From the NCBI RefSeq assembly GCF_002165305.2, contig NZ_CP032284.1:7327-71326 (forward strand): a stretch of DNA of 64,000 bases, read 5' to 3'. Position 1 is the first letter of the stretch, and the number at the start of each line of letters is the position of its first letter. The notes beneath the pieces were generated by a model. The model saw only the letters and a program-made list of their open reading frames with translations, was not told the origin of the DNA and searched no databases. Positions 1-23,346 of this stretch are shown here, piece by piece. Source of the stretch: Acinetobacter sp. WCHA55. GTDB lineage: Bacteria; Pseudomonadota; Gammaproteobacteria; Pseudomonadales; Moraxellaceae. Made by a program: the position numbers and the translations under genes.

Positions 1-417
1 TTCTATTTGCTGAGCTAAGTCATCAGTATAGCCTTTCATCAGGACACGATTTATGGAAATATTAAGATTACATGAGCTTGCTTCAGCAAGACCATCCAAT
101 AATTTATGTAACTTTCCACCACCAGTTACCTTGCTATAGATATCTTCATCCATTGAATGCCAACTAACTCTTAATAGGTCTAATTCAGCATTTTTCAAAA
201 GTTGTGCATATTTTTTCAAATATGCACCATTTGATGTCATCGAAACAGAAAATCCTTTCTCTTTAAAAATCCTTACAACATCAATAATATTATAATCACC
301 ACTTTTCCAAATCAAAGGTTCAAGTGCTGCAATTTCAACATTGCGACTTTTACTATTTTCTAACCACCAACAAGCTAAATTATTTATTTTTTCAAAAGAC
401 AAATATTGATGATTCAT
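1..417 (-). CDS. MoaA-like radical-SAM protein (partial, runs off the window)
   Basis: The reading frame starts with ATG at 417 and continues past base 1, so only about 139 N-terminal residues are seen. The order of elements matches the middle of a MoaA-type radical-SAM barrel: an LSFEKI helix, a LEPLIW segment where GGEPLL is expected, a TSNG strand end, then SWHSMDEDIYSKVTGG and NISINRVLMKG. The CxxxCxxC cluster motif that should lie about 25 residues before LSFEKI is absent, and an in-frame TAA lies seven codons upstream of the ATG, so the start cannot be moved far. Its ATG overlaps the TGA of the upstream kinase gene (ATGA), indicating translational coupling. It could be a cluster-less relative, a decayed gene, or a protein with its Cys ligands in the unseen C-terminal part. 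Confidence 0.7.
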   Translation of the reverse strand, partial: MNHQYLSFEKINNLACWWLENSKSRNVEIAALEPLIWKSGDYNIIDVVRIFKEKGFSVSMTSNGAYLKKYAQLLKNAELDLLRVSWHSMDEDIYSKVTGGGKLHKLLDGLAEASSCNLNISINRVLMKGYTDDLAQQIE

Positions 418-935
418 ATTGCTTCCTGGATAATTTTAACGACTTGATCTATAGTTTTAGTAGAAGTATCAATAATCATCATATCTTTCATTTTATTAAA
501 ATTGCTTGAAACATGTTTAAGATGCACATAATCATGATCTAGTTCATTTACAAAGTTATATTGTGTTTCTCGTATCTTTAATCTAGCCAATCTAGTTTTC
601 TCATCTACTGTTAAATAAACCGTAAGATCAGGAATCAATAAGTCATATTTATCCATTATCAATTTAGGTTCAATATAATTACCTTGATAAGCAATTGTTG
701 AATGGATATATCTATCGCAAATAATTGTTTTTTCTTTTAACTCTTCTTTTAGTATAGATTTAAGTTGGATCAGATCATCTAAATAATAAGAAAATTTATC
801 TTCACAATCTTTTTCAGCATGTTTCTTAAAATATGGCGTCTGTATAAACTCAGCTCCCATATTTTCTGCTAATTTTTTTGATATGGTACTTTTACCAACA
901 CCATCTATTCCCTCAATCGTAATAAATTTTTTCAT
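414..935 (-). CDS. tmk: thymidylate kinase-like nucleotide kinase
   Basis: This 173-residue protein has the dTMP-kinase layout: P-loop GIDGVGKST at residues 9-17, a DRY motif (ICDRYIHSTIAYQG) near residue 74, and an Arg-rich LID around RLKIRE. The family phosphorylates dTMP to dTDP in the cytoplasm. It is shorter than the usual 200-210 residues, and the chromosome should already carry the housekeeping copy, so a specialised nucleotide kinase is possible. The start is ATG preceded by a GAGGGG ribosome-binding site. The stop overlaps the ATG of the radical-SAM gene downstream, so the two form an operon. A nucleotide kinase beside a MoaA-like protein recalls prokaryotic viperin loci, but the partner lacks the diagnostic Cys motif. 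Confidence 0.75.
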   Translation of the reverse strand: MKKFITIEGIDGVGKSTISKKLAENMGAEFIQTPYFKKHAEKDCEDKFSYYLDDLIQLKSILKEELKEKTIICDRYIHSTIAYQGNYIEPKLIMDKYDLLIPDLTVYLTVDEKTRLARLKIRETQYNFVNELDHDYVHLKHVSSNFNKMKDMMIIDTSTKTIDQVVKIIQEAI

Positions 936-1205
936 AACCCCTCGCTGTACTTTTTACTAAATTTGTATAATTACTAATGAATTAAATTGGTTTTAAACTA
1001 TGCTTGGATGATCTTGATGTGCATATATAGTCATTATTTACTATTAATACTTTACTTAGAATTAATTCTATCTCACAGAATAATAAAACGTTTTGACACA
1101 AAATCATCCATATATAAAGGATGTGTTTCATCTATATTTATAGTGGATAAAAATAATAGTCTTATCCACAATTGTGCTTCTAAATTTGACACGGTATTTC
1201 AAGAA
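936..1205. other. AT-rich intergenic region with a DnaA-box match
   Basis: No convincing gene lies here. It separates the kinase gene (promoter presumably just upstream of 935) from the end of the five-gene operon. A perfect DnaA-box sequence TTATCCACA occurs at 1162-1170, with an inverted partial match (TGGATAA) at 1144-1150. Confidence 0.4.
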
Positions 1206-1787
1206 TTAAACTCGCAAGATAAAAGGCAAGCCATTACCCAAAATTTGCCCATGTGTATCGATACGCCATTCATTGGTTACCGTTAACACTCGTGTTTCAA
1301 TGCTTGGGTCATAAAAATTAGTAAAATAATGAAAACGTTGATTCGTAGATCCAACCCAATTACGCACGTTTTCAGTCAAAGCATGTTGATATTCTCCATC
1401 CACCAAAACATCTGTGGCATTAAGCAATTGTGATGCCCCTTTAAAGCGATCATCATCCAATTCTTCCAGCTGATAACCACTAAACACCATTACTGATAAA
1501 CCCATTTTTCGGCATGCTTGTGCTACATCAGCCAAACCTTCTGCCTGCAAAAATGGTTCTCCTCCCAGTAAAGTCACCCCCTCAATGCCATACTGTTGTC
1601 GATTTTGGGCAATCTGTTCAATAACCATATGTGAATCACACACATCAGCTGGTTGAATTTTTAAAAATTTCCCATTACAACACCCAACACAACGTTTTAA
1701 ACAACCCTGCACCCAAATGGCAGTACGTAGACCAGGTCCTTCTGCTTGGGTAACATCAATCATTTTTGCTATATTCAACCATGCCAT
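1206..1787 (-). CDS. NrdG-like radical-SAM activating enzyme, last gene of five-gene operon
   Basis: The 193-residue protein has a CxxxCxxC cluster motif (C29, C33, C36) followed by the radical-SAM GGEPFLQ segment near residue 75, as in anaerobic ribonucleotide-reductase activases and other small 4Fe-4S radical-SAM activases. The N-terminal stretch VTQAEGPGLRTAIWVQGC is typical of this group. No glycyl-radical enzyme is adjacent. It sits 26 bp behind a ClpB-type ATPase gene as the last gene of a five-gene operon, so its substrate is probably one of the operon proteins or a nucleotide. The start is ATG with AAGGA upstream. Family assignment is strong; the biological role is unknown. Confidence 0.85.
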   Translation of the reverse strand: MAWLNIAKMIDVTQAEGPGLRTAIWVQGCLKRCVGCCNGKFLKIQPADVCDSHMVIEQIAQNRQQYGIEGVTLLGGEPFLQAEGLADVAQACRKMGLSVMVFSGYQLEELDDDRFKGASQLLNATDVLVDGEYQHALTENVRNWVGSTNQRFHYFTNFYDPSIETRVLTVTNEWRIDTHGQILGNGLPFILRV

Positions 1788-1813
1788 ATGCTGATCCTTA
1801 TTTATTGCTTTTC

Positions 1814-3667
1814 TTACACAATATTAAAATCAAAAACCTTACCCGCCTGAATTACCTCAATACTCCGGTTTTTCAATTGTTCAGGATATTGTACTTCGGC
1901 AAATAAGAAATCTGCCAATGGATCAAATAAATGCTTAGTCAGAACATTGAGGACACCACGCCCGCCATGTTGTTTATTGACTTGATTAATCAAGGTTTGC
2001 AAGGCTTTATCTTCATCTTCAAAACGAAATGACTGAATTTGCCATTTGTCTTTTAAACGCTGTTCAAGGGGTTGTAATTTGGAACGCGCGATATTTTTTA
2101 AAATTTCATCATTGTCCATAAAATTAAACGGAATAATATTGGCTTCACCAATACGCCCCAATAATTCAGGGCGTTTTAACTCAGTTTTAAAATGATGTTG
2201 TACCGCAGATTGAAATTGTGCTGAGACTTGTTCAGGAGTACTTGGTTCAATCTCGCTTGCGCCAATATTTGAGGTAAATACAATAAAAGTATCCGCAAAA
2301 GAAATGGTTTCACCTTTACCATCAGTTAAACGGCCATCTTCCAAAATTTGTAAAAATTTATCCAAAATACGCGGGTGCGCCTTTTCAATTTCATCAAATA
2401 ACAATAAAGAAAATGGACGATTTTTCACAGCGTTGGTGAGTTGTCCACCTTGTTCATAACCGACATAACCAGGAGGAGCACCCACTAAACGTTGATCAGC
2501 ATGTTCATGGTTAAATTCGGACATATCAAAACGGATGCAGGCATCTTCATCACCAAATAAAAATTGTGCTAAAGACTTTGCTAATTCGGTTTTACCCACC
2601 CCTGTTGGTCCCACAAAGAACAAAGCACCTTTAGGAGTTCGAGCTTTGGCTGAATGCTGTAAACCTGATAAGCCTGTATAAGCTCGGATTAGAATTTTAT
2701 TGACTGCCTCAATGGCTTGATCCTGACCTTTCACCCGCAGTTTAAGAGTCTCTTTTGTGCCTTTTAACTTGCTATGATTTAACTGCTCCCAGGGAGATTG
2801 ACGCTTGCCAAAACGATATAAAGACACCAAGTTTTGTAAGTTTAATGTTTCTTGTTGCTGACGTGATAAACGTGCCAAATGATAGATATCTCGAACGGTA
2901 AAACCATCGGTCAGCGTAACAAAATCAGTCATGGCTTGTGATTGTGGCAATAGATCTTCTTGTACTTGAAACGCCATTTTTAATGCTGAAATCGCACGTT
3001 CACGTTCATGTAAATTAGGTAAGTCAATATTAATTTCCGCAAATAATGGATTATTTAAATATAAGCTTGGTGGTAGGTTACTTAATCCTGAGCATAAAAA
3101 TACTAATAAACTTTGCGGTTTATCAATTTCATTTGCACTTAAATTGACTTGAGCATCACGGATACTTTTAGAAATTTGTTGTAACCATGCACGCTCGGCA
3201 TCACTTAAACTGTTAATTTGACCAAACATATAGTTGGACCAATCCACCACAAAAGCGACACGTTGCTGAGATTCAAACATCACCTTTTGTGCAACTGCAA
3301 AAAAGTCTTTCGGTGTGAGTTCTGTTTGACCTACATTGCTATTGCTTACCTGAGTTGAAGAATTATCTGCTTCACCCATGTCATAATCATCAGCCTCATC
3401 AAATACTGACGACTGAAAACCTGTCGCCTGTAAATCATTCCATTGTTGTGTTGTTACACCTGAAATCCCACCCACGCGTGAATAAAACACCACATGCTGA
3501 AAGCCTTTTGCTTTTAGGCTATCACTAATGATTTGATTAATCGGCTGTAATTGCCCATTTTTAGCGAAGGCGAGATCAATAATATTACCCGATACCACCA
3601 ATGCACGGCGTAACATGCTTTGACGCTCAAAATTTTCTAACCATGTTTGAATATGTTGTGTAGACAT
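1814..3667 (-). CDS. ClpB/ClpA-type AAA+ ATPase with degenerate N-terminal AAA domain
   Basis: The C-terminal half (about residues 310-617) is a canonical Clp/Hsp100 second AAA+ domain: Walker A GPTGVGKTE near 354, pore loop GAPPGYVGYEQGG, Walker B LLLFDEIEKAHP near 422, the sensor-1 strand FIVFTSNIG, and GGRGV in the small lid domain. The N-terminal ~300 residues look like an AAA+ fold (VVDW, LLVFLCSGLSNLPPSL) without a usable Walker A. It has no ClpB N-domain or middle coiled coil; at 617 residues it is shorter than ClpB. It probably forms an ATP-driven ring acting on partner proteins. It follows the coiled-coil gene by 61 bp. Confidence 0.88.
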   Translation of the reverse strand: MSTQHIQTWLENFERQSMLRRALVVSGNIIDLAFAKNGQLQPINQIISDSLKAKGFQHVVFYSRVGGISGVTTQQWNDLQATGFQSSVFDEADDYDMGEADNSSTQVSNSNVGQTELTPKDFFAVAQKVMFESQQRVAFVVDWSNYMFGQINSLSDAERAWLQQISKSIRDAQVNLSANEIDKPQSLLVFLCSGLSNLPPSLYLNNPLFAEINIDLPNLHERERAISALKMAFQVQEDLLPQSQAMTDFVTLTDGFTVRDIYHLARLSRQQQETLNLQNLVSLYRFGKRQSPWEQLNHSKLKGTKETLKLRVKGQDQAIEAVNKILIRAYTGLSGLQHSAKARTPKGALFFVGPTGVGKTELAKSLAQFLFGDEDACIRFDMSEFNHEHADQRLVGAPPGYVGYEQGGQLTNAVKNRPFSLLLFDEIEKAHPRILDKFLQILEDGRLTDGKGETISFADTFIVFTSNIGASEIEPSTPEQVSAQFQSAVQHHFKTELKRPELLGRIGEANIIPFNFMDNDEILKNIARSKLQPLEQRLKDKWQIQSFRFEDEDKALQTLINQVNKQHGGRGVLNVLTKHLFDPLADFLFAEVQYPEQLKNRSIEVIQAGKVFDFNIV

Positions 3668-3728
3668 TTTTATCCTATTGTTTGCATAAGTGACGATGAA
3701 TTCATCTATCTAAAGTGTGTGATCAACT

Positions 3729-4844
3729 TTAACCACGTTGATGTTGATGAGGGGCTAAAGGTTTCATTTCTGCACTTTCATCATCAGGGTTTGACCAAAT
3801 CACACGTTCATCACTAAGTTCTACGCCATAGACTTCCGATAGTCGTGGCAAGACTTTTTGCATATCTTCTTTACAGGTTTGACCACGATAATTATCAAAC
3901 TCGTAACGGACTTTACCATCTAACTCAATTTTAAATTTTGCCTGATTGCCAGATGGGCGTTGTGCTTGAATAATCACAATGTCCTGATCCTTTTCTTTCA
4001 CTCGCTTTGGTTTTAATACGCTAAATCCTGCATTTTGTAAGGACTGATAAACTGCTTTTACCATTTCACGACGAATACTTTCATCTTCTAAGGCTTGATC
4101 TGTTTTTTGCGCCATGCTTTTCACTTGATCAAAACTGACAGCAGGATCATCCATAAGCTTTACTAAATCTGTTTGCAACTGTTGAGTTTCAGCAAGAGGT
4201 AGTTGTCCCTCTTGAACATCATCAGCGAGTTGCTGTAATAAGGTTTGTGTTGCTACCTGTTCAATTTTTTGCTGTTGGCTTTCTCTTTGCTGTTTTGCTA
4301 GTTGTTCATAATGTTGTTGAATTTTGTCCATCTCTTGATTTATTTGTTCAATACTATAATGACTTCCATCAGAAAAAATCTTTTCGCGTAAGGCACTTAA
4401 CTCATTTAAAGCCAAATTACGAGCAAGTTTATTACTCCATTTTTGCCAATTGCGTTGCCATGCTTGTTCTAATTCAGCATTTTCTTGTCGACGTTTTTCT
4501 ACCAGCTGACGTTGTTTTTCTAAGGCTTCAAGGCGCTGGTTTTCAATTTCAATCTGCTGGTTGTCACGTGCAAGAGCCCTTAAGCCATAGATACGTTGTC
4601 CGATGCTTAGACTAAACTCACGTGCAGCAAAAGCATCGGTTCTCAATAAATTTTGCATTTGAGTAAGTTGTTTTTTTATTTGCGTAACTTCAACTTCTAC
4701 ATAGGCAGTTAAACCTTGTTCATCTAGCTGATTTAACGTGTTTTGATAACGCTCAAGATATTGTGTAGTTGTTTCACGTACTCGTGCCTGAGCAATTTCA
4801 CGTTCACGTTGTAGGCGGTAACGTCGTTCATGGATTGCGCTCAT
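3729..4844 (-). CDS. coiled-coil protein of the five-gene operon, function unknown
   Basis: Residues 1-270 of 371 are highly charged and Gln/Glu/Arg-rich with heptad-like patterns, predicting long coiled coils. The last ~100 residues (from VLKPKRVKEKDQDIVIIQ) look like a small globular alpha/beta domain (FKIELDGKVRYEFDNYRG). I do not recognise a named family. Position between the PIN-domain gene and the ClpB-like ATPase, with short gaps, suggests a structural or adaptor subunit, perhaps the substrate or scaffold of the ATPase ring. The start is ATG with AGGATTTTAAT in front. Confidence 0.7.
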   Translation of the reverse strand: MSAIHERRYRLQREREIAQARVRETTTQYLERYQNTLNQLDEQGLTAYVEVEVTQIKKQLTQMQNLLRTDAFAAREFSLSIGQRIYGLRALARDNQQIEIENQRLEALEKQRQLVEKRRQENAELEQAWQRNWQKWSNKLARNLALNELSALREKIFSDGSHYSIEQINQEMDKIQQHYEQLAKQQRESQQQKIEQVATQTLLQQLADDVQEGQLPLAETQQLQTDLVKLMDDPAVSFDQVKSMAQKTDQALEDESIRREMVKAVYQSLQNAGFSVLKPKRVKEKDQDIVIIQAQRPSGNQAKFKIELDGKVRYEFDNYRGQTCKEDMQKVLPRLSEVYGVELSDERVIWSNPDDESAEMKPLAPHQHQRG

Positions 4845-4880
4845 ATTAAAATCCTATTTAAAAATCTTTAATGATGTAAA

Positions 4881-7043
4881 TTATTGATGTTCTTTAATTA
4901 ACTTAGACTTAGGCTGATATTCGGATGTAGTGCGAATATTGACTGCTTTTGCCAAATTTCCCATGTTTTTATCTAAACTAAAAAGTTCACTACTGTTAAA
5001 TCGATAAAATAAAGCCACTGAAAGGATTTGTTCATCCGCGGTCATTTCTTGTGCTGTTTTGCTTTTTGCAATGATAGTTACAAACTCATCGTGAGTCGGT
5101 TCAATATGTTCTGATGTTAAATGCTCAATAGCACGAATCGCACGTCTTGCTTGCTGTGCTTGCTCGCTAAAGTTATCCCCGTCTTGTCCCTTTTTAAGGC
5201 CGTCTAGTTCATGTAAGACAACTTGCGGAATCACCACAAAATAATCTCGTTCTAAATTAGTCAGATCATCACTATGACGCATCAAATAGCTAGTATCTAA
5301 TACAGCAATAGGCTTAGCATCTGTGCGTAAAGGTGCAAATCTTTGTGCTATCCCTTGTTTTAATACCACTAAATGTCGTTGTTGCTTTTGTAGCCTTTCG
5401 CAAAGATTCAAAATTTCAGTATGCTTTAGTTGTAGGTTCTCATAACAATCTAGCCAATCGTCGATTAAAGCTAGGGCCTTTATATTTACCTTACTTAAAG
5501 AGCTGGAATTAATCTGCTGATTTGGATTAAGCACATCAGGATTAATCTGACTTTTTAATGACTTTTGTATCTGTACAATATTGACAAAGTCTTGATCGAG
5601 CGTTGTTCCAGCTTTTTGACCTTTGTCAAAAGCATCATCAAGTAATTTTGCAAAAAAGAGAGGTTCTGCCCATTGTGGTGCAAGTTCTAAATGTGAAAAG
5701 GTACTACGAAAATCCTTTAATTCATTAAAATTTGCAATCTGTTGAATTTTGTCTAACCATGCACTAGCACGTAAACCGGTATTATTCAATTTTTTCATGG
5801 CTTCATGCAAATTCATGGTTTCTTTCATAGTTAAATTTGGTGCCTGTTGAATCACTTCATGTTCTGATAAAAAGTAACGTGAAAATGCTAAGACGTCTAA
5901 AGTGTTAGTAGTATTCCAATGCATCACTTCATTTTTAATTGTTGACCACACTTGCTCATCACGAAGTTTAATTTTCAAAGCCACTAAACGTGGTTGTTTG
6001 GCATAAAAGATATGGGTATTACCTTTTAATACGATTGTCGCTGTTTGATCTTTATATAGGTACAATGCCTGAAAGCCTTGTGGTAAAGCCGTAGTGAATG
6101 GCAAAGTTAGTGTTTTACCTTGTAATTTCGCTAATTTTGCTTTTTCCGACAAAACGATTTCTGGTTTATTACTGACTTGGTTTGGGCTTTTTTCAGCATA
6201 AACCTGAATCAATGCATTCTCATCGAGTAAAGTATTTTCTACCAGCGTCACATCTAATACTGATGACCATTCAAAAGTGGGTAAATCATTGTCTATCTGT
6301 TGGAACGTTGGGGCTAAAAGATGCTCCCACAGCACTTCATGCTTAGTTTGCTCAAGCCACATACTAAATATTTGCTGTACTTCCGAATTTCCTTTAGCAT
6401 CAAATCCAAGATGACCTTGCATAGTAAGCGCAATACGCATTGGTAAGCGATGTGCTACTGTCTTAGCCACTAAACTATTAACGTCACTGATATTAGTATT
6501 CGGCTTTTTCCATTCAAATTGTTTCTCACTTGCCTGGTTAAGCATGTCACGGATCATTTGATCAATATGCGATATATTTGCTTCAAAAAGCGTTTGAGGC
6601 ATTACATAAGGTGCTTGGGTATCATACGGTTTTAATTTATAGTCTTTATCACTAATAAACTGATTTATTAATGGATGAAATATGCTTTTTAATTCAGCAT
6701 TTTTATTCTCACTTGGCATTTCATTTTTGTGATATAAATCTTTTCCTAGTGTCGTCACTGTCAGATCTTTAACATGTATGGCTGTTAAATCAGTATCACA
6801 ACGTTCTAGCATTTCATTATCAATCAAACTGTAAAGTGCTTTTTGCACTAAAAATGCTTCAATTTTAAATTTTTCACATACTTGGCTTAAACTATATTGC
6901 CCAAGCATGGTTTTGTATTTCACCGCTAAGTTTAAGAGTAACCCTTCAAAAACACTCGGTTGGCGTATCGCTTGATAACTTACACGCGATTCCATCTGAT
7001 ACACAGGTAGGCTCACTTCAAAACTTTTAAGCAATTTCAACAT
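4881..7043 (-). CDS. large protein with C-terminal PIN ribonuclease domain
   Basis: The 720-residue protein ends with a PIN domain of the kind joined to PhoH-like proteins: VLDTSYLM (about 581), LHELDGLK (about 611), TADEQILSVAL (about 672) and FSLDKNM (about 689) supply the four acidic residues of the metal site. The N-terminal ~570 residues are not a family I know; the first ~120 look like a winged-helix segment (VCEKFKIEAFLVQKALYSLIDNEML in part). PIN domains cut RNA, so an RNase effector or processing role is likely. It lies 57 bp after the helicase gene and 36 bp before the coiled-coil gene. Confidence 0.8.
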   Translation of the reverse strand: MLKLLKSFEVSLPVYQMESRVSYQAIRQPSVFEGLLLNLAVKYKTMLGQYSLSQVCEKFKIEAFLVQKALYSLIDNEMLERCDTDLTAIHVKDLTVTTLGKDLYHKNEMPSENKNAELKSIFHPLINQFISDKDYKLKPYDTQAPYVMPQTLFEANISHIDQMIRDMLNQASEKQFEWKKPNTNISDVNSLVAKTVAHRLPMRIALTMQGHLGFDAKGNSEVQQIFSMWLEQTKHEVLWEHLLAPTFQQIDNDLPTFEWSSVLDVTLVENTLLDENALIQVYAEKSPNQVSNKPEIVLSEKAKLAKLQGKTLTLPFTTALPQGFQALYLYKDQTATIVLKGNTHIFYAKQPRLVALKIKLRDEQVWSTIKNEVMHWNTTNTLDVLAFSRYFLSEHEVIQQAPNLTMKETMNLHEAMKKLNNTGLRASAWLDKIQQIANFNELKDFRSTFSHLELAPQWAEPLFFAKLLDDAFDKGQKAGTTLDQDFVNIVQIQKSLKSQINPDVLNPNQQINSSSLSKVNIKALALIDDWLDCYENLQLKHTEILNLCERLQKQQRHLVVLKQGIAQRFAPLRTDAKPIAVLDTSYLMRHSDDLTNLERDYFVVIPQVVLHELDGLKKGQDGDNFSEQAQQARRAIRAIEHLTSEHIEPTHDEFVTIIAKSKTAQEMTADEQILSVALFYRFNSSELFSLDKNMGNLAKAVNIRTTSEYQPKSKLIKEHQ

Positions 7044-7100
7044 AATTATTCTCTATAAAATTTAGTTCAAATAGTCATAACGTCTAAATAAAAGTATGAC

Positions 7101-10100
7101 TTAAGCCACCTGTGGTTTTGAAATTTCACAAGCCTGTATAAATTCCCTTGCTGTACAGACCTGTCCTTCACGATCCAAACGATTAAAGATGTCCTGATAA
7201 ATTTTACGTTTGCTCGTGCCAGGTTTATCCATATTCGGTAAATTCACATCACGTAACTCCAACATATTACGTGCACCAAATACCATTAATAAGTTTTGTG
7301 CACGTGACATTGCGACATTAATAAATTCAAAACGGGCGATATTGGCACGAGATGAGCGTCTGTATTCTTTTGGCTTACCATCATTACGCACTAGACTTAT
7401 TAAAATGATAGGTTTTTCTTTACCTTGGTAACGGATGACCGTGTTAATTTCGACATGAATGGCATCAAAATCTAATTTGCCACCATTGGCTTTACGAATT
7501 TCATCTCGAATAGTTCGGCACTGCGATTGGTAAAAAGACACCACACCAACTTTTTGCTTATTCTTACTGTGATAACCTTGTTGTTTCATTTGTAGATTGA
7601 TGTTGATTAGAGTTTTAGCAATCAATTTAGCTTCTGTTAAATTGCTACTCTCATCGTCTCTGTAAGACACACCTTTTTCATCATTTGAAGTGTCCACCCA
7701 AAGCAAATGCTTATTAGCATCCACCAAGGTATTAAGCTTTGATTTTAAAACGACTTGATGCTCACGTTGTGCATCAGGATTACCACATGTAAGTTGCCCA
7801 TCATAAAAATAGTTAATCATTTTCATAATGCTAGGATGCATACGAAATTGTGTGGTGAGACGTTCACGTAACACATTAGGTGCTTTTTCAAATAACTCTT
7901 TAAATAATGATGCAGTAACTAATTTTTCATAGCGTTTGAAATTGTCTTTTGTGAGTAAATTTGAACGATCTTGATTTTCATCTTCTACTTCTACTAAATC
8001 TTCAAATGTTTCAGTAGCATCTTGGCCTTCTTGGAACATTGGAGGTAATTGACGATGATCACCCACTAAAATAGCTTTACGGGCACGCATAAGTGGCATT
8101 AACAGCTCAATTGGGGTAGCTTTAGATACCTCATCAATAATCACCACATCAAAGCCATCAATACCTGCATCTTGTAAGGTACGTGAATTTTCATTACAAG
8201 AAATTGCCACTAAATTACAGTTTTGGGTATATTCCTGACTCATTAATTCCCAATCCAATTTTGACTGTTGTGGGTTATTAAGAGACTGCACCCAGTCTTC
8301 AAATAAACCATGCCAATTTTGGTTTTGTGCTTTGCTATCCTGATATTGTTGCTGTAAATACGAAATATGATTTTGAGTAGATTTAATTGATTCACTTAAA
8401 CAGGTATTTTGAAAATTTTGTTGCTGTAAATGTTGTTGTTCAGCATGTTGCTGTTTTTGCAATTGAATTTCGGTCGTTTTGTATTGATCAAGTAGGTTTT
8501 GAATTTCACGTTCAATTTGTTTGATCGGTGCATCATCGGGTACATTTATCTCAAATGCTTGCATTTGTGCAGTTAAGCTTTGGCTTGCTTCTGTAATCTG
8601 ACCATTAAGACATTGCTCAAATTGTTTAAATTTCTCTAAACGCTCAGCTAATAACATTGCAGTAGATTGTGCATTTTTAATATTGAGGAATTGATCTCTA
8701 TCTTTAAACAATTGGTAACATTCGTGGGTTAAACCACCACTTTGTTGCTTTAATTGATTTACTTCTCGACGTTTTAGACGCCATAAATTAGAAACTTCTT
8801 CGCTATCATCTAGATCCATTTGATTAGCAAGCTGTTCAATTTCTTGTTGTAGTTGTTGAACTTTTAGCTGTGTCTCGATACTCGTAAGACTACCCTGACC
8901 TGCTTGTTGCAAGCGAGTAATATCCTGCTCCATCACCTCAAAGCTACTATGAATATTTTGCCAAACATCTAATAATGCCATCAAAATTTGAGCTTGTGAT
9001 TCTGGATAAAAGCGAAAATCTGCAATTTGAAATGGCAATTTAACTTGGTAGCTGTCTAATTCAAATAGGCGATCTGCAATATTTTTCATCATGTCCGATA
9101 AAACAAGACCTTGAGGTGCAATACTTTGCCCTGATAACAAATCTTGCAACTGTTGTAATTCTACTAGTCGTTGTTCATGCACTTGATACTCGAGTTGCTG
9201 TTGTTGAAAAGCCTTTTGTGCCTGTTGTTGTTGCTGACGCTTTTCAATGCCTTGTTGTTTGATACTTTGACGTTGTTGTTCAAGCTTTTGTGCATCGAGT
9301 TGTAAAAACTCAGCTTGATTTAACCATGTTTTTAACGCATCAATTTGTGCTTCCTGCTGTTGCAATGGCGTTAAAAAACGTACCTGAATATCATGGCTCA
9401 ATGCCTCATAATGACGTGCTAAGGCTTGCTCACCTGAAAATAGTTTACCTTCTTCGGTAATTTTATCTCGCCCACGCCCTTGTTTTGCTAAACGAACCGC
9501 ACGTAATGAAGGGTGATTGGTGATACGTGATAGCGCATTATCAATAGCATCATGTGATTGGCTACTAAGCAAAATGGTTTTACCCTGTTTTACTAGCTGT
9601 AAAATAGCTTCAGCAATAACTGTGGTTTTACCTGTACCTGGAGGGCCTTGAATTAAACATAAGTCTGGTGCAGCAAGCATTTTTTGCACTGCACGCTTTT
9701 GTGCATCATTTAAGTTAGAATTAAACCATTCTTTAATTTCAGGAAGTAAGTTAGGTAATTGTGCTTGCGTAATATCAAATAAATAACTTGATAGATATGG
9801 TGCATAGCAATTTTCATTTTGCTTTAAATTACGCAGGATCCTATCCTGACGATCTACCAATGACCAATCACCAATTAAAGCAAAAGATACGAAACCTGTG
9901 CTTGGTACTGTTTCAAGCATTTCTTTAATATCTTCTCTATATTGTAGAATGGCTTCTTCATCAGATTGATCAGCTACCAAATTGGTGACTTTATTTTTCC
10001 AATCTTCTGTGGGTTCAATATTCAACCATGCAAATACAGGTGCTGAAAAAGGTATATCTTTTAAATCTATATGTTGAAAAACATTCTTTACCTCATCTGG

Positions 10101-10925
10101 ATTCAGTAAACTGAAAGCATTTTTACCACGTTTAAATTGTCCGAGTTCAAATTTTACCTTTTGCTTATTTTGACGTTTATCTTCTAAGCTCGGTAATTCA
10201 AATTTCCATGGATCAGTTGAGGTATTTAGATCAAATAATTGTAGGTCTTTTCGTGCTAAGGCTCTACGTACAAGCTCAAAATCTTGTTGACTGTTAGCAA
10301 TCGCAAGCAATTTAAAAATATGTTTTTGTTCATCATAATTAATTGTTAAATAGCGCAAACCTACTGATTTTTGCCGAATCAGTTCTTTTTTAAAGTCCAA
10401 AAATTTACGCCACTCTTCTAAACGCTCATTAGCTAAAACAGAAATTTTAGGTAATTCTTCTACAAGTTGTGGTGTTAATACATTTTGGATACCACGAGAG
10501 GGATATTCCCCTTCCCCCAAAAACTGATATTCACACTCTAATTCATGTTCATAGTTAGTAGGGTGTTCACTATTATGGCTAATTATTACGCTTTCTGGGA
10601 TTAAATAAGGTGTGGAAGAACGAGTCCCCCAGTAACCAATCACAACTAATGAACTGTGTTCATCTAAATACGCACTAAAAGCAGGATGTTGAGGGATACG
10701 AATGGCTAAATTAATGCGTTGTGCAGATTTATCCTGTAAAGACAAATTTGCGACATAACACACTGTTGGCATAGATGGGAAAAAAAGATTCAAAAAATGT
10801 GTGCTTTTGTCTGAAGCTACATTTTCAAATAAAGGTTCGAGGCTTGGTTTAGCTTTTAAAATATGTGTAATATTTTGTTCAAGTCTAGTTTCACGATCTG
10901 AAAGTTTCCAAAAAAGTGTAGCCAT
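7101..10925 (-). CDS. Upf1/DNA2-like superfamily 1 helicase with long coiled-coil insert
   Basis: This 1,274-residue protein is the first gene of the operon. It has SF1B helicase motifs in order: LIQGPPGTGKTT (about 427), VVIIDEVSKAT (about 928), VGDHRQLPP (about 958), TTQFRMHPSIM (about 1025) and NVAMSRAQN (about 1205). Between motifs I and II lies a ~400-residue Gln-rich coiled coil, a domain arrangement seen in some phage-defence helicases. No PLD or other nuclease motif is evident, unlike Mokosh-type proteins. Together with the PIN protein it could unwind and cut invading RNA or DNA. Helicase class is certain; the system is not one I can name. Confidence 0.9.
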   Translation of the reverse strand: MATLFWKLSDRETRLEQNITHILKAKPSLEPLFENVASDKSTHFLNLFFPSMPTVCYVANLSLQDKSAQRINLAIRIPQHPAFSAYLDEHSSLVVIGYWGTRSSTPYLIPESVIISHNSEHPTNYEHELECEYQFLGEGEYPSRGIQNVLTPQLVEELPKISVLANERLEEWRKFLDFKKELIRQKSVGLRYLTINYDEQKHIFKLLAIANSQQDFELVRRALARKDLQLFDLNTSTDPWKFELPSLEDKRQNKQKVKFELGQFKRGKNAFSLLNPDEVKNVFQHIDLKDIPFSAPVFAWLNIEPTEDWKNKVTNLVADQSDEEAILQYREDIKEMLETVPSTGFVSFALIGDWSLVDRQDRILRNLKQNENCYAPYLSSYLFDITQAQLPNLLPEIKEWFNSNLNDAQKRAVQKMLAAPDLCLIQGPPGTGKTTVIAEAILQLVKQGKTILLSSQSHDAIDNALSRITNHPSLRAVRLAKQGRGRDKITEEGKLFSGEQALARHYEALSHDIQVRFLTPLQQQEAQIDALKTWLNQAEFLQLDAQKLEQQRQSIKQQGIEKRQQQQQAQKAFQQQQLEYQVHEQRLVELQQLQDLLSGQSIAPQGLVLSDMMKNIADRLFELDSYQVKLPFQIADFRFYPESQAQILMALLDVWQNIHSSFEVMEQDITRLQQAGQGSLTSIETQLKVQQLQQEIEQLANQMDLDDSEEVSNLWRLKRREVNQLKQQSGGLTHECYQLFKDRDQFLNIKNAQSTAMLLAERLEKFKQFEQCLNGQITEASQSLTAQMQAFEINVPDDAPIKQIEREIQNLLDQYKTTEIQLQKQQHAEQQHLQQQNFQNTCLSESIKSTQNHISYLQQQYQDSKAQNQNWHGLFEDWVQSLNNPQQSKLDWELMSQEYTQNCNLVAISCNENSRTLQDAGIDGFDVVIIDEVSKATPIELLMPLMRARKAILVGDHRQLPPMFQEGQDATETFEDLVEVEDENQDRSNLLTKDNFKRYEKLVTASLFKELFEKAPNVLRERLTTQFRMHPSIMKMINYFYDGQLTCGNPDAQREHQVVLKSKLNTLVDANKHLLWVDTSNDEKGVSYRDDESSNLTEAKLIAKTLININLQMKQQGYHSKNKQKVGVVSFYQSQCRTIRDEIRKANGGKLDFDAIHVEINTVIRYQGKEKPIILISLVRNDGKPKEYRRSSRANIARFEFINVAMSRAQNLLMVFGARNMLELRDVNLPNMDKPGTSKRKIYQDIFNRLDREGQVCTAREFIQACEISKPQVA

Positions 10926-11172
10926 ATTTTTTTCTCATAACGAAATTATCATTAAAAATCTTTAAAATCATAAAAATAATTTTTCAAGTGAAAATTATTA
11001 TAAATATATATGCTTGAAAATTAAAACAATAAATAACCTAAATTGTGGATACAAAATTTGTTTGGGATACTAGGAGCAGTCCAATTAATGATTTTATAAA
11101 GTGAGAACACGCCTAAAGAGACTACCAACGAATTCAGTAGATTCATTTTTTATTGCTTCATAATTTTTAAAT

Positions 11173-11202
11173 AAATTTGGCAGCAGTTTCGCTGCCAAAT
11201 TT
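11173..11202 (-). terminator. hairpin terminator behind the LRAT-like gene
   Basis: A perfect 12-bp inverted repeat (AAATTTGGCAGC / GCTGCCAAATTT, 6-nt loop) sits nine bases after the stop of the LRAT-like gene. The flanking A/T tracts would let it act in both directions. Confidence 0.75.
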
Positions 11203-11210
11203 TAAATATT

Positions 11211-11876
11211 TCAATCATTGAAGAAAGAGAAAAGCCCACCAACAACAGCCGTAGCTAACCCCGCAGTTAGAATAACAGGAGCTGCAACAACAGCCGTTGC
11301 TCCTAAAGCAGCAGTACCAAGAGCAGTCCCAGTAGTAGTTAAGGCACCAGTTGCAACTGTTGCAGTACCGGCTCCTAAAAATCCTCCTATAGCAGCATTA
11401 GTGAATAGAGAGCTGCCTAAAGCAGTTGTACTCACTGTTGTGGTTGTAGCGATAGGGATGGTGGCTGCGACTACTGTACCTGTTCTCAGTAAGCTATAGG
11501 ATACTAAGGCGGTGCAAGCTTGTTGCATTACAGCTTGTACTTGCTCACTACGTTTTTCCCCAGTTACACACCAACATGCAAAATGTTCGCAATTATTAAA
11601 TAGGAGATTGTAATCGTCTTCCCCTAAGCAATTAAGTGCTCTACTAATGACTTCATCAGGAGAATATATCTGTTGATCTGACGGATAATTAATGGCAGAA
11701 AAATAGTCATACCCACCTAAAAAGTCTTCTAAAGTTGTTAGTTCAATACAACCTTTTTTGAAGGCTTCAGCAAAACCAGAGTAGTGAATGACTTGGTTAT
11801 CACCGATATAAATACCATGGTGGGTATAAAAAACTCTAGAAACTTTAATGTGTTGGCCTAGTTTTAAATTATTCAT
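11211..11876 (-). CDS. LRAT-like (NlpC/P60-superfamily) protein with hydrophobic C-terminus
   Basis: Residues ~1-115 match the lecithin-retinol-acyltransferase fold: a His motif YTHHGIYIG (H19/H20) and the signature NNCEHFACWC (catalytic Cys about residue 96). Members are thiol acyltransferases or hydrolases acting on lipids or peptides. The remaining ~100 residues are Ala/Thr/Gly/Val-rich with several hydrophobic stretches, so this end probably inserts in a membrane. It precedes a strong hairpin terminator and follows a small DUF4258-like gene by 24 bp, so the two are likely cotranscribed. A membrane-acting toxin or effector is conceivable, but nothing proves it. Confidence 0.78.
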   Translation of the reverse strand: MNNLKLGQHIKVSRVFYTHHGIYIGDNQVIHYSGFAEAFKKGCIELTTLEDFLGGYDYFSAINYPSDQQIYSPDEVISRALNCLGEDDYNLLFNNCEHFACWCVTGEKRSEQVQAVMQQACTALVSYSLLRTGTVVAATIPIATTTTVSTTALGSSLFTNAAIGGFLGAGTATVATGALTTTGTALGTAALGATAVVAAPVILTAGLATAVVGGLFSFFND

Positions 11877-11900
11877 AAATTAACTCTCTTCGGTTTAAAA

Positions 11901-12239
11901 TTAACAACGTTTAAAACTGTTTATGTTGTAAGTGGTAATTAGATCTTCTCCATCAAGAACAACTGTTATTCCGCCCTTATCTAAAATCTTTAGAGCAATT
12001 CGGCGACTTTTTTGAAGTTCATTCAAAATTTCTTGATAAGAAGTTTGATTCTTTTCTTGCAATATCCATCTTAAGTTTTTGATTTTATTGTCTATATCTG
12101 ACAAATATTTTTGGGTGGTTTTCCTGTTAAGAATATATTTATCACCTCGCACACTCCCTTCCGATAGCGTGAACTCCACCATTGATTTAGTACATCCACG
12201 TTGACTCATTCTTTGATGCATATGATTAGTAAATTGCAT
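11901..12239 (-). CDS. small DUF4258-like protein
   Basis: 112 residues starting FTNHMHQRMSQRGCTKSMVE, which resembles the HxxxRxxxRGI opening of DUF4258 proteins, and ending with a VVLDGEDLITTYN strand pattern like that family. DUF4258 proteins are small RelE-like folds often found with toxin-antitoxin genes. It is the first gene of a two-gene unit with the LRAT-like protein and is divergent from the frameshifted gene at 12342. Function unknown. Confidence 0.6.
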   Translation of the reverse strand: MQFTNHMHQRMSQRGCTKSMVEFTLSEGSVRGDKYILNRKTTQKYLSDIDNKIKNLRWILQEKNQTSYQEILNELQKSRRIALKILDKGGITVVLDGEDLITTYNINSFKRC

Positions 12240-12341
12240 GACTATCTGCCCGACTATGTTTCCCTTCGATAATTTGATTGTATAAAATAAAACCAGTGTT
12301 TATAATGGGTGAATAGGGATGTACTTTTATAGACACTAAAA

Positions 12342-13630
12342 ATGCCAAGAATTTCAAAAAAACAGAAAGCCTTTTTCAATCTTTTAGATCTAGTTTATTT
12401 TTATGAAATTTCTCATACTTTATTAAGTAAGCATGATTCAGTTTATTTTTATGAGTTCTTTTTAAATTCAATCAATCACAAACTAATTGAATATAAGATT
12501 TCAGATGAAAAAAGAAATATTTATAAGCATTACTTAATTTGTGCTTTAGAAATATATTTAAATAATGAAAAAGATGAATATGAAAAGATGATTAAATTTT
12601 TGAAGAAAGATATAGGAATGTCAGAAGAAAGTTATATAAAATATTGTAATGTAAGAGCAGATTTTTCTCTTGAGAAACTATTTTCTTTTATTAAAGAAAA
12701 AAATTAGATTTAGATATTTTTATAAAAATATTTTCAGAAGTTTTTGTAGAAATTAAAGAAGCTGGATATGAGCTGGATTATATATTTAACTTAACAGTTA
12801 GATCCTTTTTCTTTGACTTTGAAAAACCAAGTTTAAACTTATATAAAAAAATAATTGATTATGATTTTTTCGGAAAAAATAATGAAACTGATATCCACTT
12901 TGAGGAGGATGATTTTTTACTTAGATTAAGTCTTTTAGTTGAATTTGAATTATTTAGAAAGTATATGAAAAAAATAATGACTTTTATTAAGTTGGAGAAA
13001 ATAGAGTTACAATTTCCTAGTGATAATCTTTCCTTAGAAGGTAGAAAACAGTTAAAGGATAAATATTTCGATATAGTGGAAACAATGTTCATAACAGCAG
13101 AGAATTTCCATAAAATAAGTCTGCCAATCGCATCTAAAATTGGTAGTGAAAATTTTAATAATTTTTTTATCTATTCAAATGACTTATTAAAGAGAGATGT
13201 TTTTTTTCCTGGAACAAAAGCTAGATGGGAAAGTATGCTGGGATCTTATGAAATTTTAATTTTTCGTTGTAATGGTAGTAAAACAGCTATTTATTTTGAG
13301 GAGTCTAAAGATACTTTAACTCTGAGTGATCAGTCAAAAATTATTTTAGAAGATAATGGGATAGAAATTTCTGCTAGGACTTTATATTTAAGATATAAAG
13401 AGTTAAAAAAATTCTATAAGAAAGTTAAATATTATTGCTATTTGATTGCAAATACTCAAAATGTACTTGAATGGCAAAGTGGTGACAGTAGTTATTATGA
13501 TATGACAATTAGGTTTGATCCTGAAAGTGTAAATTTAAAACCTGCACACTATCAATTTTATTATGAATCTAAAAATAGAAAAGATAAAAATACAGATAAA
13601 TTAATAATTGATTCAAAAAATATTCATTAA
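12342..13630 (+). pseudogene. hypothetical gene split by a -1 frame change at an A7 run
   Basis: One frame runs from ATG 12342 to TAG 12705-12707; a second frame is open from about 12704 to TAA at 13630. The upstream part of the second frame (12704-12964) has no start codon but reads as plausible protein (LDLDIFIKIFSEVFVEIKEA), with the same strong AT-rich codon use. The switch point is seven A residues at 12697-12703, where A_AAA_AAT is in frame as a -1 slippery heptamer. Joined, the product would be about 429 residues. I do not recognise a family. Either a one-base indel inactivated it, or the sequence is wrong at the homopolymer, or frameshifting is programmed. Confidence 0.6.
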
Positions 13631-13723
13631 TTTTTTATATAATTTTTTATAGTGTATAGGTTTTTATATAAATATTATGTACTATGATTTTACTTAATTT
13701 ATTTTAGGGGGGATTGACGGTAT

Positions 13724-13754
13724 AAATTTCTAAAAATCCTTATTTTAGAAATTT
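13724..13754 (+). terminator. hairpin after the frameshifted gene
   Basis: A perfect 12-bp stem (AAATTTCTAAAA / TTTTAGAAATTT, 7-nt loop) followed by T-rich sequence lies about 95 bp after the stop at 13630. The rest of the gap to the resolvase gene (13631-13963) is AT-rich and shows no gene. Confidence 0.55.
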
Positions 13755-13963
13755 TTATATAACAAAAACATATTTACCTATAATTAATATTATATAAAGC
13801 ATAGCATTGATTTTTTATTAAATTACAGATGAACGAATTAGTATCGTTCAATATTCGTTTCATTACTGATTGTAAATAGAAGCCCTGAATTAGTTTTTGA
13901 GGGATACCCCACGTTCCATAATTTTTATAAATAAACTAAATATAGTGCCCAATTTATATTGAG

Positions 13964-14530
13964 TTAATTACAAGCCTTTAAATACCGATATACAGCTTGA
14001 CGGCTAATTCCAAATGCTTGTCCTAATGCCATTTTAGAAGGATACTTCCCTTCCTTCCATGCCTGACGTAACGCTTCAGCTTGTTCAGGTCTTAATTTAT
14101 GAACACGGCCTTTGTACTTTCCTTGAGCAGATGCAAGTTTGATTCCTTCCTTTTGTCTCTCTAAAATAATTTCACGTTCAAATTGTGCGAAAGCCCCCAT
14201 CAACTGCAACATTAAATTATCCATAGGGGAAGATTGAGCGGTAAATGTAATATTCTCTTTTACAAACTGAATAGCAATTCCTCTTTTGACAAGCTGATCA
14301 ACTTCAGTGACCAAATCTTTTAAGCTACGAGCAAAACGATCCATGGAATGTACTATCACCCGGTCTCCTTCCCGGACATAATTCAACATTTCCTGAAATT
14401 TCGGTCGGTCGGTATTTTTACCTGAAGCACGGTCAACAAAAACCCGGTCGACTTCAATTCCCTCAAGTTGACGTCCCGTATTTTGCTCGACCGAACTCAC
14501 TCGCACATAGCCTACTTTTTGGCCTTTCAC
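13964..14530 (-). CDS. serine recombinase of the Tn3-resolvase/invertase family
   Basis: 188 residues with the resolvase N-terminus GYVRVSSVEQ (nucleophile Ser about residue 12), the VHSMDRFARS and FAQFEREIILERQKEG motifs, and a C-terminal helix-turn-helix (MALGQAFGISRQAVYRYLK). The length matches plasmid resolvases. The start is GTG at 14530 with GGGGCG in front. No Tn3 transposase is nearby, so it most likely resolves plasmid multimers or is a remnant of a transposon. The palindromic region upstream (14600-14700) is a candidate res site and autoregulatory operator. Confidence 0.9.
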   Translation of the reverse strand: MKGQKVGYVRVSSVEQNTGRQLEGIEVDRVFVDRASGKNTDRPKFQEMLNYVREGDRVIVHSMDRFARSLKDLVTEVDQLVKRGIAIQFVKENITFTAQSSPMDNLMLQLMGAFAQFEREIILERQKEGIKLASAQGKYKGRVHKLRPEQAEALRQAWKEGKYPSKMALGQAFGISRQAVYRYLKACN

Positions 14531-15648: not shown

Positions 15649-16734
15649 TCAAATACTCCTAAAACTATTACGGTCGTCAAAATAGCCCCAACAATTCTCG
15701 ATGGATTCAATACTTAAGTTAGGGTAAAGCGTCCGCAGTCGAATGGCCAACTGATCATCATTCACAAAAATATGCTTTATATAGCTTGGTTCAATTTTCT
15801 CAAGCACCATAACTTCAGCTTGAACATCTGTTGTATCTTGATCTTTGAGCATAGTACTTCTTTTAAGGATGCCTCTACTTGTATTTACTTCTTCAGCAAA
15901 CATAGCCTCCAGTGCTGCTGGACCTTTGAATTGTTCGGTATGAAGATTCCTATATATGCTTGAAGCAGCATTCGATGGATAAAATAAACACTCTTTGGTA
16001 TGAACAATCGAAGCATTTAACAATATTAAGCACCAAGTATTGTTGATGTAGCGATTCCGGTAAGAGAAAAACATGGAGGAGTTAGGGAACGTGACAGAGA
16101 AACATGTAGCATCAAGCTTGCTATCTAGGCGATCCTTGTCAAAATATGTATATCCAATTTTTTGGTTTTCCAAATCACTTCGAGATAGGAAACCTGATTT
16201 AACAATACTATGTAAGTTGTCTATAGACGTAAAATGAGTTAAAAACTCAATTCCTCTTTCTTGAACAATTGATGTCATATAAATGACATCGAGCGCCTCT
16301 TTCCATTCTACCGAATAGCGCCCCCCTGGTGACTCCTCAAGATAATTCTGTGCCTGCAAATAGCGTTTATTATTAATCATTATTCTATTACGACCAATAA
16401 TACTTTTAATGACTTTACATCTTAGAAATATTGCAACGTGAGGTGGGAAATTTAAATTTAAATAAGGCTGAAGAATGCTATCAAAAAATGTTGAAACATT
16501 ATCAAAATTATTAGAGTCCTCGAATAATGCTCCATCATATTCAATAGATTTAAAGCCTGACTGTTCCACCAGTTCTTTTGCTATATCGTTCCCAATAGAA
16601 GCTGCGCTAAGTTCGTATCTTATAAATCGGAACAAAGCATCATCATCTTTAAACATTTTCAAAATATCAAGAACGGTATACTGTAATCTTACAAATGTCT
16701 CATCATCTAGTTTTATAGCGTCATTATTAAACAT
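15649..16734 (-). CDS. DarT1-like DNA ADP-ribosyltransferase toxin
   Basis: 361 residues. The C-terminal ~200 residues match the DarT family (DUF4433): FLTHFTSIDNLHSIVKSGFLS near 161, SVTFPNSSMFFSYR, WCLILLNASIVHTKECLFYPSNAAS, and QAEVMVLEKIEPSYI with the likely catalytic Glu near residue 306. These enzymes transfer ADP-ribose from NAD+ to DNA bases, thymidine for DarT2 and guanine for DarT1, and act in phage defence. The first ~155 residues are an extra helical domain of unknown role. The NADAR-type partner directly downstream points to the DarT1 class. AT-rich codon use contrasts with the BREX genes next door. Confidence 0.82.
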   Translation of the reverse strand: MFNNDAIKLDDETFVRLQYTVLDILKMFKDDDALFRFIRYELSAASIGNDIAKELVEQSGFKSIEYDGALFEDSNNFDNVSTFFDSILQPYLNLNFPPHVAIFLRCKVIKSIIGRNRIMINNKRYLQAQNYLEESPGGRYSVEWKEALDVIYMTSIVQERGIEFLTHFTSIDNLHSIVKSGFLSRSDLENQKIGYTYFDKDRLDSKLDATCFSVTFPNSSMFFSYRNRYINNTWCLILLNASIVHTKECLFYPSNAASSIYRNLHTEQFKGPAALEAMFAEEVNTSRGILKRSTMLKDQDTTDVQAEVMVLEKIEPSYIKHIFVNDDQLAIRLRTLYPNLSIESIENCWGYFDDRNSFRSI

Positions 16735-22606: not shown

Positions 22607-23343
22607 TAAACAACTCCCATCGCCAGCTTTACAACCTCTTCTAAATCACTTTTGAATATATTAAATGAAGACATATTTATACTAGTAATATCGATCTCTT
22701 TATTATTAATTAGCTGTGCCATATCTAACCCATTAGTTTTTCCATCTAATGACTCTGCAAGCTGCTCTTTTAAGGGATTTTTACCATTATCATTTCCTGA
22801 TTCATCCTCTAAACAGTCACAATGTTGATATGGATTTTGCTTGGTAGCACATAACAACCATGCTTCGGATTTTGGTTTAGGAATCATTGCCACTCCTAAG
22901 TCATAATCCTCCGCCCTAAAGCCAGCTATAATCGAATTACGTTTATCATTCCAATTTCCCCGCCCTGCGGAGGAAGTACCATCTGCATCTCTAAACAATA
23001 CCGCAATAACGTTATCATCTACTTCGGTAGCTTTATTTCTTGCAATAGAGGCTAAAGCTCGAGCATTTTCAAAAAAATATTTCGTTTCAGCTGGTTTTTT
23101 TTTACCCCTTAAAGACATTGCCTTACGCTGAGGCGGTTGTTTATTTTCAGCTAAATAAGATTCAGATACGTAACTTACTAATTCACAAACCAAATGTGAC
23201 ATTTCAAAACCTTGGTTTAGCTCTATAAGCTGATCTACTATGATTGCCATAGGACCTTCTTGAAAATCAGCTCTATCACATACTGCTGAACTACGACAGA
23301 CACCAATATCACTAGGGCCTTCACCACTTAATAATAGGTACAC
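22606..23343 (-). CDS. TOPRIM-like (DUF4276-type) protein embedded in BREX
   Basis: 245 residues starting from GTG: YLLLSGEGPSDIGVC carries the early Glu of a TOPRIM-like fold, and VIAVLFRDADGTSS carries the DxD. This matches DUF4276-like proteins, frequent partners of AAA/ABC-type ATPases. With the upstream ATPase it would form an OLD- or PARIS-like split ATPase/TOPRIM nuclease. It begins four bases after the ATPase stop and overlaps pglZ by one base. The pair is more AT-rich than pglZ and brxL, consistent with a later insertion. Confidence 0.72.
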   Translation of the reverse strand: MYLLLSGEGPSDIGVCRSSAVCDRADFQEGPMAIIVDQLIELNQGFEMSHLVCELVSYVSESYLAENKQPPQRKAMSLRGKKKPAETKYFFENARALASIARNKATEVDDNVIAVLFRDADGTSSAGRGNWNDKRNSIIAGFRAEDYDLGVAMIPKPKSEAWLLCATKQNPYQHCDCLEDESGNDNGKNPLKEQLAESLDGKTNGLDMAQLINNKEIDITSINMSSFNIFKSDLEEVVKLAMGVV

Positions 23344-23346
23344 GTA

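Follow-up and report, generated by a model that had tools for sequence, protein, structure and literature searches.

Type I Mokosh is a two-gene system of an MkoA-family helicase, presumably fused to a kinase, followed by a protein that joins an MkoB N-terminus to a phospholipase D (PLD) nuclease. In humans, SMG6 is a partner of UPF1 in nonsense-mediated mRNA decay (NMD). Type II and III CoCoNuT systems, those with CnuH, combine a UPF1-like helicase, coiled coils and a nuclease, with RNA as the predicted target (PMC11090510). In cyanobacteria, DUF2997 and ycf35 have been placed in a cluster with the ferredoxin fed7 (PMC4284462). We analysed a 64,000-nucleotide stretch of DNA from Acinetobacter sp. 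WCHA55 (contig NZ_CP032284.1, positions 7,327 to 71,326, hereafter the window), which holds a five-gene operon that looks like an unnamed anti-invader system.

In transcription order and on the minus strand, the operon encodes a UPF1/IGHMBP2-like superfamily 1 (SF1) helicase (HEL, 1274 residues, 7101-10925), a PIN nuclease-domain protein (PIN, 720 residues, 4881-7043), a coiled-coil protein (CC, 371 residues, 3729-4844), a Clp/Hsp100-type ATPase (AAA, 617 residues, 1814-3667) and a radical S-adenosylmethionine (SAM) enzyme (RSAM, 193 residues, 1206-1787). The five open reading frames (ORFs) are intact and co-directional, with gaps of 57, 36, 61 and 26 base pairs, as a first-pass annotation of the window had described. 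It had also asked whether the genes keep company elsewhere, and they do. Among 25 distinct loci (the window, L002-L024 and L057), 21 carry HEL-PIN-CC-AAA-RSAM in the same order on one strand, each gene being recognised by its family hidden Markov model (HMM). At three others (L008, L013 and L021) the contig end falls inside the PIN gene, and in L024, from Leisingera, the PIN position is taken by a gene that its record annotates as PIN yet that falls under the HMM threshold. No alternative gene order occurs among the 25 loci, and 4-base overlaps between adjacent genes of the set are common. No single PADLOC system spans the five genes, and no paper describing this combination was found among those listed in searches of the open PMC library. 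The reading that we favour, and hold tentatively, is that of an RNA-targeting defence complex, with a Mokosh-like effector half and a control half made of RSAM, a DUF2997-like domain and a Clp-like ring.

The effector half begins with HEL, an MkoA-like helicase (Pfam AAA_11/AAA_12) that scores 320 and 273 bits against the PADLOC MkoA models PDLC03920 and PDLC03921. Its N-terminal RecA domain (residues 404-587, 9165..9716, minus strand) contains motif I, GPPGTGKTT, with motif columns invariant in the 4 aligned sequences, and the C-terminal one (residues 1005-1219, 7269..7913, minus strand) is defined by Pfam. A coiled coil of some 400 residues had been ascribed to this protein; an insertion of about 400 residues is indeed present between motifs I and II, as a putative coiled coil. 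The second protein, modelled with AlphaFold2 (AF2) at a pLDDT of 81.6 and a pTM of 0.46, ends in a PIN_4 nuclease domain (Pfam, residues 581-707, 4923..5303, minus strand) whose residues D583, E612, D670 and D691 are invariant in 23/23 rows. The best solved relative of this domain by sequence profile is human SMG6, followed by SMG5 and Dis3; by fold, SMG6 again comes on top yet is tied with other PIN domains. The fusion of PIN_4 to a further region stands as first described, but that region, taken then for a 570-residue unknown domain, is recognisable over residues 8-191 (6471..7022, minus strand) as MkoB-like (PADLOC MkoB, E=1.1e-5). The MkoB profile is matched by three of the five aligned family members, the window's included, with a best value of 1.6e-7.

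Like type I Mokosh, the operon places an MkoA-family helicase ahead of a protein with an MkoB-like N-terminus. It differs in carrying PIN_4 in place of the PLD nuclease (the PIN protein matches no PLD family in Pfam), in a helicase for which Pfam gives no match to a kinase family at E<=0.1, and in three further genes, found in each locus where the sequence examined extends to them; in the Mokosh pair used for comparison (L042), the kinase is weakly visible. Because these three defining features of Mokosh are lacking, we do not file the operon under that name. The earlier view that these activities are grouped in no known anti-phage system needs amending for the helicase and the MkoB-like N-terminus, and holds for the rest. 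Other Mokosh-like variants were seen along the way: L039 (7443-12997) and L040 (2862-13117) carry a helicase followed by a protein with the MkoB N-terminus and no PLD or PIN match, and in L040 the helicase is MkoA-like, with PP2C and kinase genes ahead of it. The resemblance to the UPF1-SMG6 pair of NMD, suggested by sequence and fold comparison, lies in a UPF1-like SF1 core beside a PIN domain with SMG6 as best sequence relative and its acidic residues kept. The operon is not filed as NMD either, and neither the UPF1 zinc domain nor the SMG6 EST1 domain is among its Pfam matches at E<=0.1.

By these comparisons the effector half would work like Mokosh and NMD. The helicase would move along single-stranded invader RNA, or aberrant RNA arising from infection, and the MkoB-like region may let it recruit the SMG6-type PIN endonuclease, which would then cut the RNA. 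The nucleic-acid surveillance first proposed for the operon fits a helicase together with a nuclease; its RNA target and its protective effect we infer. DNA could be the target instead, with a DNA2-like helicase exposing single strands or R-loops of invader DNA to a PIN domain acting as a structure-specific DNA nuclease. The PDB profile matches of HEL are DNA2, SMUBP-2, UPF1 and SEN1, its best solved relatives being DNA2 and SMUBP-2, and some PIN-like folds are DNA nucleases; however, the proteins closest to this PIN domain by sequence all belong to RNA decay, and we hold DNA targeting to be possible but unlikely.

We give a similarly low probability to abortive infection, in which the PIN RNase would cut host RNA or tRNA once infection is sensed, restrained or released by CC, the Clp-like ring and RSAM. 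PIN toxins are common, the PIN acidic residues are conserved in 23/23 rows, and an AAA ring with a modified switch protein would suit a latent nuclease. Against it, the helicase is the first gene at every locus whose contig reaches that far, and no small antitoxin-like partner was seen.

The set is patchily distributed over Alpha-, Beta- and Gammaproteobacteria and two metagenome-assembled genomes (MAGs) from other phyla, with some copies carried by plasmids and integrases and restriction genes among the neighbours. One of these MAGs (L022, Lentisphaerae) carries a copy resembling the betaproteobacterial ones and may be a binning error. In the Pseudoalteromonas MAG of L018 (2640-7884), the helicase is split into two ORFs, either because the copy has decayed or through an error of assembly. 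The first three plasmid loci were located with the PIN protein as query. With CC as query, 19 loci were found in the genome collection, and 4/149 genomes within the genus were matched, including one not met before; its homologue P0118 retrieved nine plasmid records, four different ones of which were examined, and the N-terminal region of AAA retrieved the identical nine. The set is rare: the window's own genome was the sole match among 369 Gammaproteobacteria, and the RSAM alignment recovered no second five-gene member from 398 Pseudomonadota genomes (317 bits for its own, 121 for the next). In none of 5,426 E. coli genomes did a match extend over 80% of the query, and the best 10 of 1,466 matches are Clp genes. 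No relative of P0118 was present among 50,697 phage records, and of 21 stretches of viral contigs that fit a pattern none was confirmed.

This distribution bears on a non-defence role, in which mobile elements would carry the operon for the quality control of RNA or ribosomes, or for stability. UPF1- and SMG6-like parts do serve quality control in eukaryotes, and rarity within a genus does not discriminate. The patchy spread, the plasmids and the adjoining integrases and restriction genes speak against such a role, which we rank below the two preceding alternatives and consider improbable. The anti-invader role first suggested for the operon gains support from its neighbourhood and from a gene set that is conserved and that plasmids carry in other hosts; defence itself we infer.

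The control half of the favoured RNA-targeting complex matches no named defence system in PADLOC 2023 or in the literature searched. RSAM is similar to NrdG and the PFL activase (Pfam Fer4_12/Radical_SAM), with a CxxxCxxC [4Fe-4S] motif (C29, C33 and C36, 1680..1703, minus strand) conserved in 20/20 rows. That it is an ordinary NrdG-like activase serving host glycyl-radical enzymes, as its 100.3 bits against TIGR02491 and its best solved relative, the pyruvate formate-lyase activating enzyme (PFL-AE), could suggest, is highly improbable in view of a score below the cutoff of 126.1, of the 12/17 hosts with neither of the two glycyl-radical families searched, and of its separate clade. Among these 17 host genomes, PF01228 occurs in three, PF13597 in five, and one or both in five. 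The own genome has neither family, in line with the first-pass description of an enzyme without a glycyl-radical partner, and the same is true of all four Acinetobacter genomes, the only ones whose completeness is known. Viperin was also rejected as the identity of RSAM (NF038283, 22.5 bits against a cutoff of 180).

A tree of 43 rows groups the five-gene enzymes in a single clade (99/96), next to which, as its sister (99/92), stand the two DUF2997-linked enzymes of Paenarthrobacter and Rhodococcus. Seventeen of the 21 rows labelled NrdG, a label given by default without a check for an adjoining nrdD, make up a distant clade; the other four fall elsewhere, one of them duplicating an AAA-linked row. 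Two other DUF2997-linked rows sit on long branches and their placement is unsure. The operons reached through RSAM, all with a stand-alone DUF2997, have the order AAA-DUF1257-DUF2997-RSAM in Paenibacillus polymyxa and AAA-X-DUF2997-Y-RSAM in Paenarthrobacter and Rhodococcus; no DUF2997 gene was detected in the scan of the RSAM homologue loci L047, L049, L050 and L051. The reverse search by DUF2997 gave three places above cutoff. In G605 and G908 DUF2997 has as its immediate neighbour a gene that fits the RSAM profile, with no AAA gene recognised near the pair in G605, and in G974 an AAA gene lies near DUF2997 with no RSAM in the 17 kb examined. Contig C46 of G605 (L095) carries a helicase operon encoding a 1039-residue helicase (109 bits to HEL), proteins of 473 and 566 residues, a 204-residue charged protein, RSAM and DUF2997, which may be distantly related to the five-gene set.

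The likely counterpart of DUF2997 in the operon lies in CC. Modelled with AF2 from 43 rows (pLDDT 81.7, pTM 0.48), CC has helices over residues 3-271, followed by strands at 280-317 and a helix at 325-339. Foldseek found nothing at E<=1e-3, and Pfam gave no clear family besides a weak match to DUF2997 over residues 301-339 (3828..3944, minus strand). This match is obtained for 4/20 CC members at E<=0.1, with 0.014 at best, and its 13.9 bits for CC are under the Pfam gathering threshold of 24.1; the assignment is credible because of the gene context, in which RSAM homologues lie beside stand-alone DUF2997 genes. The C-terminal part is the most conserved region of CC, and its G321-x-x-C324 motif, invariant in 20/20 rows, recurs in the 4 aligned stand-alone DUF2997 proteins. 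A glycyl radical on G299 was considered, since the surrounding R-P-[AS]-G-x-x-A-x-F resembles the glycyl-radical loop motif, and then rejected. The alignment with the stand-alone proteins starts only near residue 301, so that of the two residues C324 is more plausible as a site common to both. Since the sister clade of RSAM is linked to stand-alone DUF2997 genes, the DUF2997-like domain is the likely partner of RSAM, and we regard a partnership of the enzyme with the CC tail as rather probable. Of the two roles first offered for the radical-SAM enzyme, modification of a partner or production of a signal, the former gains support and would now be focused on this domain.

AAA retains one intact ring (Pfam AAA_2 and ClpB_D2-small). 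Its AAA_2 core (residues 345-507, 2147..2635, minus strand) carries Walker A and B, a GYVG pore loop and an arginine finger, each of which, like sensor 2, is kept in 24/24 rows. The N-terminal region (residues 1-290, 2798..3667, minus strand) is probably a degenerate first AAA domain, as the first-pass annotation had it: Walker A is present within residues 1-300 in none of the 24 aligned proteins, the best PDB match starts at residue 274, and the protein is Clp-type only in its second ring. A ClpP-coupled unfoldase was discounted, [ILVM]G[FL] being absent after residue 470 in 24/24 proteins by a crude test. The same AAA profile identifies further AAA-RSAM pairs, beside kinase, phosphatase and FHA-annotated genes in L050, next to a gene that combines SF1-helicase and nuclease domains in L051, beside a gene that by eye looks like a zinc ribbon in L094 (7981-12699), and beside genes with weak helicase matches (22-30 bits) in L097 and L098. 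AAA and RSAM thus form a module that recurs in a number of settings, and those outside the five-gene set are probably other conflict systems.

In the favoured RNA-targeting complex, CC would serve as a scaffold or switch whose DUF2997-like tail, with its G-x-x-C, partners RSAM, and RSAM would convert or prime this tail. The Clp-like ring, in which the pore loop is intact and no ClpP-docking motif was found, would pull CC or its complex, and this pulling may activate or reset the nuclease.

Several other systems share parts with the operon. The AAA-DUF1257-DUF2997 clusters (Paenibacillus, the cyanobacterial ycf35/DUF2997/fed7 cluster, and similar operons in Paenarthrobacter and Rhodococcus) have in common with it DUF2997, an Fe-S protein and, in those operons that lie on plasmids, an AAA ATPase, as well as the sister clade of RSAM in Paenarthrobacter and Rhodococcus, but their AAA is of another type, their DUF2997 stands alone and they lack the UPF1/PIN pair. 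PLuB has a related SF1 helicase, against whose model NF040671 HEL scores 161.5 bits, far under the cutoff of 999. Dodola DolB, PDC-M37B and ClpB share the Clp D2-type ATPase and differ from the operon in its degenerate first ring; AAA scores 63, 105 and 271 bits against them, the ClpB equivalog cutoff being 1232. A scan of 8 proteins at E<=0.1 found no DolA match, the presence of a DolA model in the library being unverified. CoCoNuT differs in that no McrB GTPase was recognised in the operon, AAA reaching only 16 bits against an McrB model with a cutoff of 637; CoCoNuT models in PADLOC 2023 are likewise unverified.

Another radical-SAM gene lies in the fetched flank of 14/24 related loci. Eight loci have a cassette of radical-SAM/SPASM, JmjC, 235-residue and leucine-rich repeat proteins (type A), whole at L017:11475-15107, L018:13703-17335 and L008:4388-7892, partial in L009, L014, L022, L057 and L006, and placed upstream or downstream of the operon on either strand. 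Four loci have a second, unrelated radical-SAM gene (type B; L012:13907-16922, L011:14759-17804, L013:5246-6274 and L019:11331-12479), with a PHP-domain protein alongside in at least two, L011 and L012, where a 375-residue protein without Pfam match is also found. L002 and L021 have flank radical-SAM genes of other types, and L003, L004, L005, L007, L010, L015, L016, L020, L023 and L024 have none, some of these flanks being short.

In all, 15/158 flank ORFs from 24 loci are radical-SAM, as against 13 matches in the whole own genome. The corresponding binomial figure of 2e-15 assumes an estimated 2,800 or so genes of comparable length and ignores kinship among loci, an arrangement-level figure of 3e-5 rests on our own count of seven arrangements, and the queries were picked after the initial flank result had been examined. 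With a matched control, the motif occurs in 13/158 flank against 1/84 control ORFs (Fisher p=0.039). The excess is large over the genome-wide rate and only modest over the matched control; we regard the association as real but unproven. These enzymes perhaps make an antiviral molecule. Among the 25 of 162 matched PADLOC families listed, one pVip model matches, at E<=1e-10, 6/87 proteins of the flanks, although radical-SAM enzymes of other kinds may also fall under this label.

The window likewise has such a flank gene, past a dTMP-kinase-like gene (414..935, minus strand) directly downstream of RSAM; both are accessory and outside the core. This radical-SAM-like gene (1..417, minus strand) crosses the window edge and encodes 328 residues in full. 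Over window positions 1-935 (L055:6279-8261), its N-terminus is without CxxxCxxC while its C-terminus has CNFNCGFP, and a 162-residue gene overlaps its end; it is possibly rearranged, degenerate or frame-shifted. An LRAT-family protein (101 bits) is encoded at 11211-11876, directly upstream of the operon. The BREX system reported nearby was recovered, with BrxA, BrxC, PglX, PglZ and BrxL matched in PADLOC at very high scores, as was DarT at 15649-16734. Within the BREX operon, PglX and PglZ are separated by a PDC-M25A/B pair (22606-24474). No Rfam match reached the gathering score in window positions 1-14000, and a weak NCBIfam match to the TsoC selenoprotein (E 0.069) was recorded. The window belongs to contig C5, which is 71,326 bp long, in a genome of 3.97 Mb; its plasmid location, asserted at first, could not be established, exact overlap of the contig ends being negative at 100, 200 and 500 bases.

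A bolder reading, which we put forward as no better than speculative, would have the operon perform RNA surveillance with a UPF1-type helicase and SMG6-type endonuclease, switched by RSAM at the DUF2997 G-x-x-C, reset by the Clp-like ring, and working in tandem with varied radical-SAM cassettes that supply an antiviral molecule, as a relative of the conflict systems proposed as the source of NMD. If true, the licensing of a nuclease by radical-SAM chemistry would be seen here for the first time, to our knowledge. It would unite Mokosh-type helicase-nuclease defence, the origin of UPF1-SMG6 and the AAA/DUF2997/Fe-S clusters of cyanobacteria, Paenibacillus and Actinobacteria, which are uncharacterised so far. 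DUF2997 would gain a testable role as a radical-SAM partner, and the operon would offer a concrete system for the idea that NMD derives from conflict systems.

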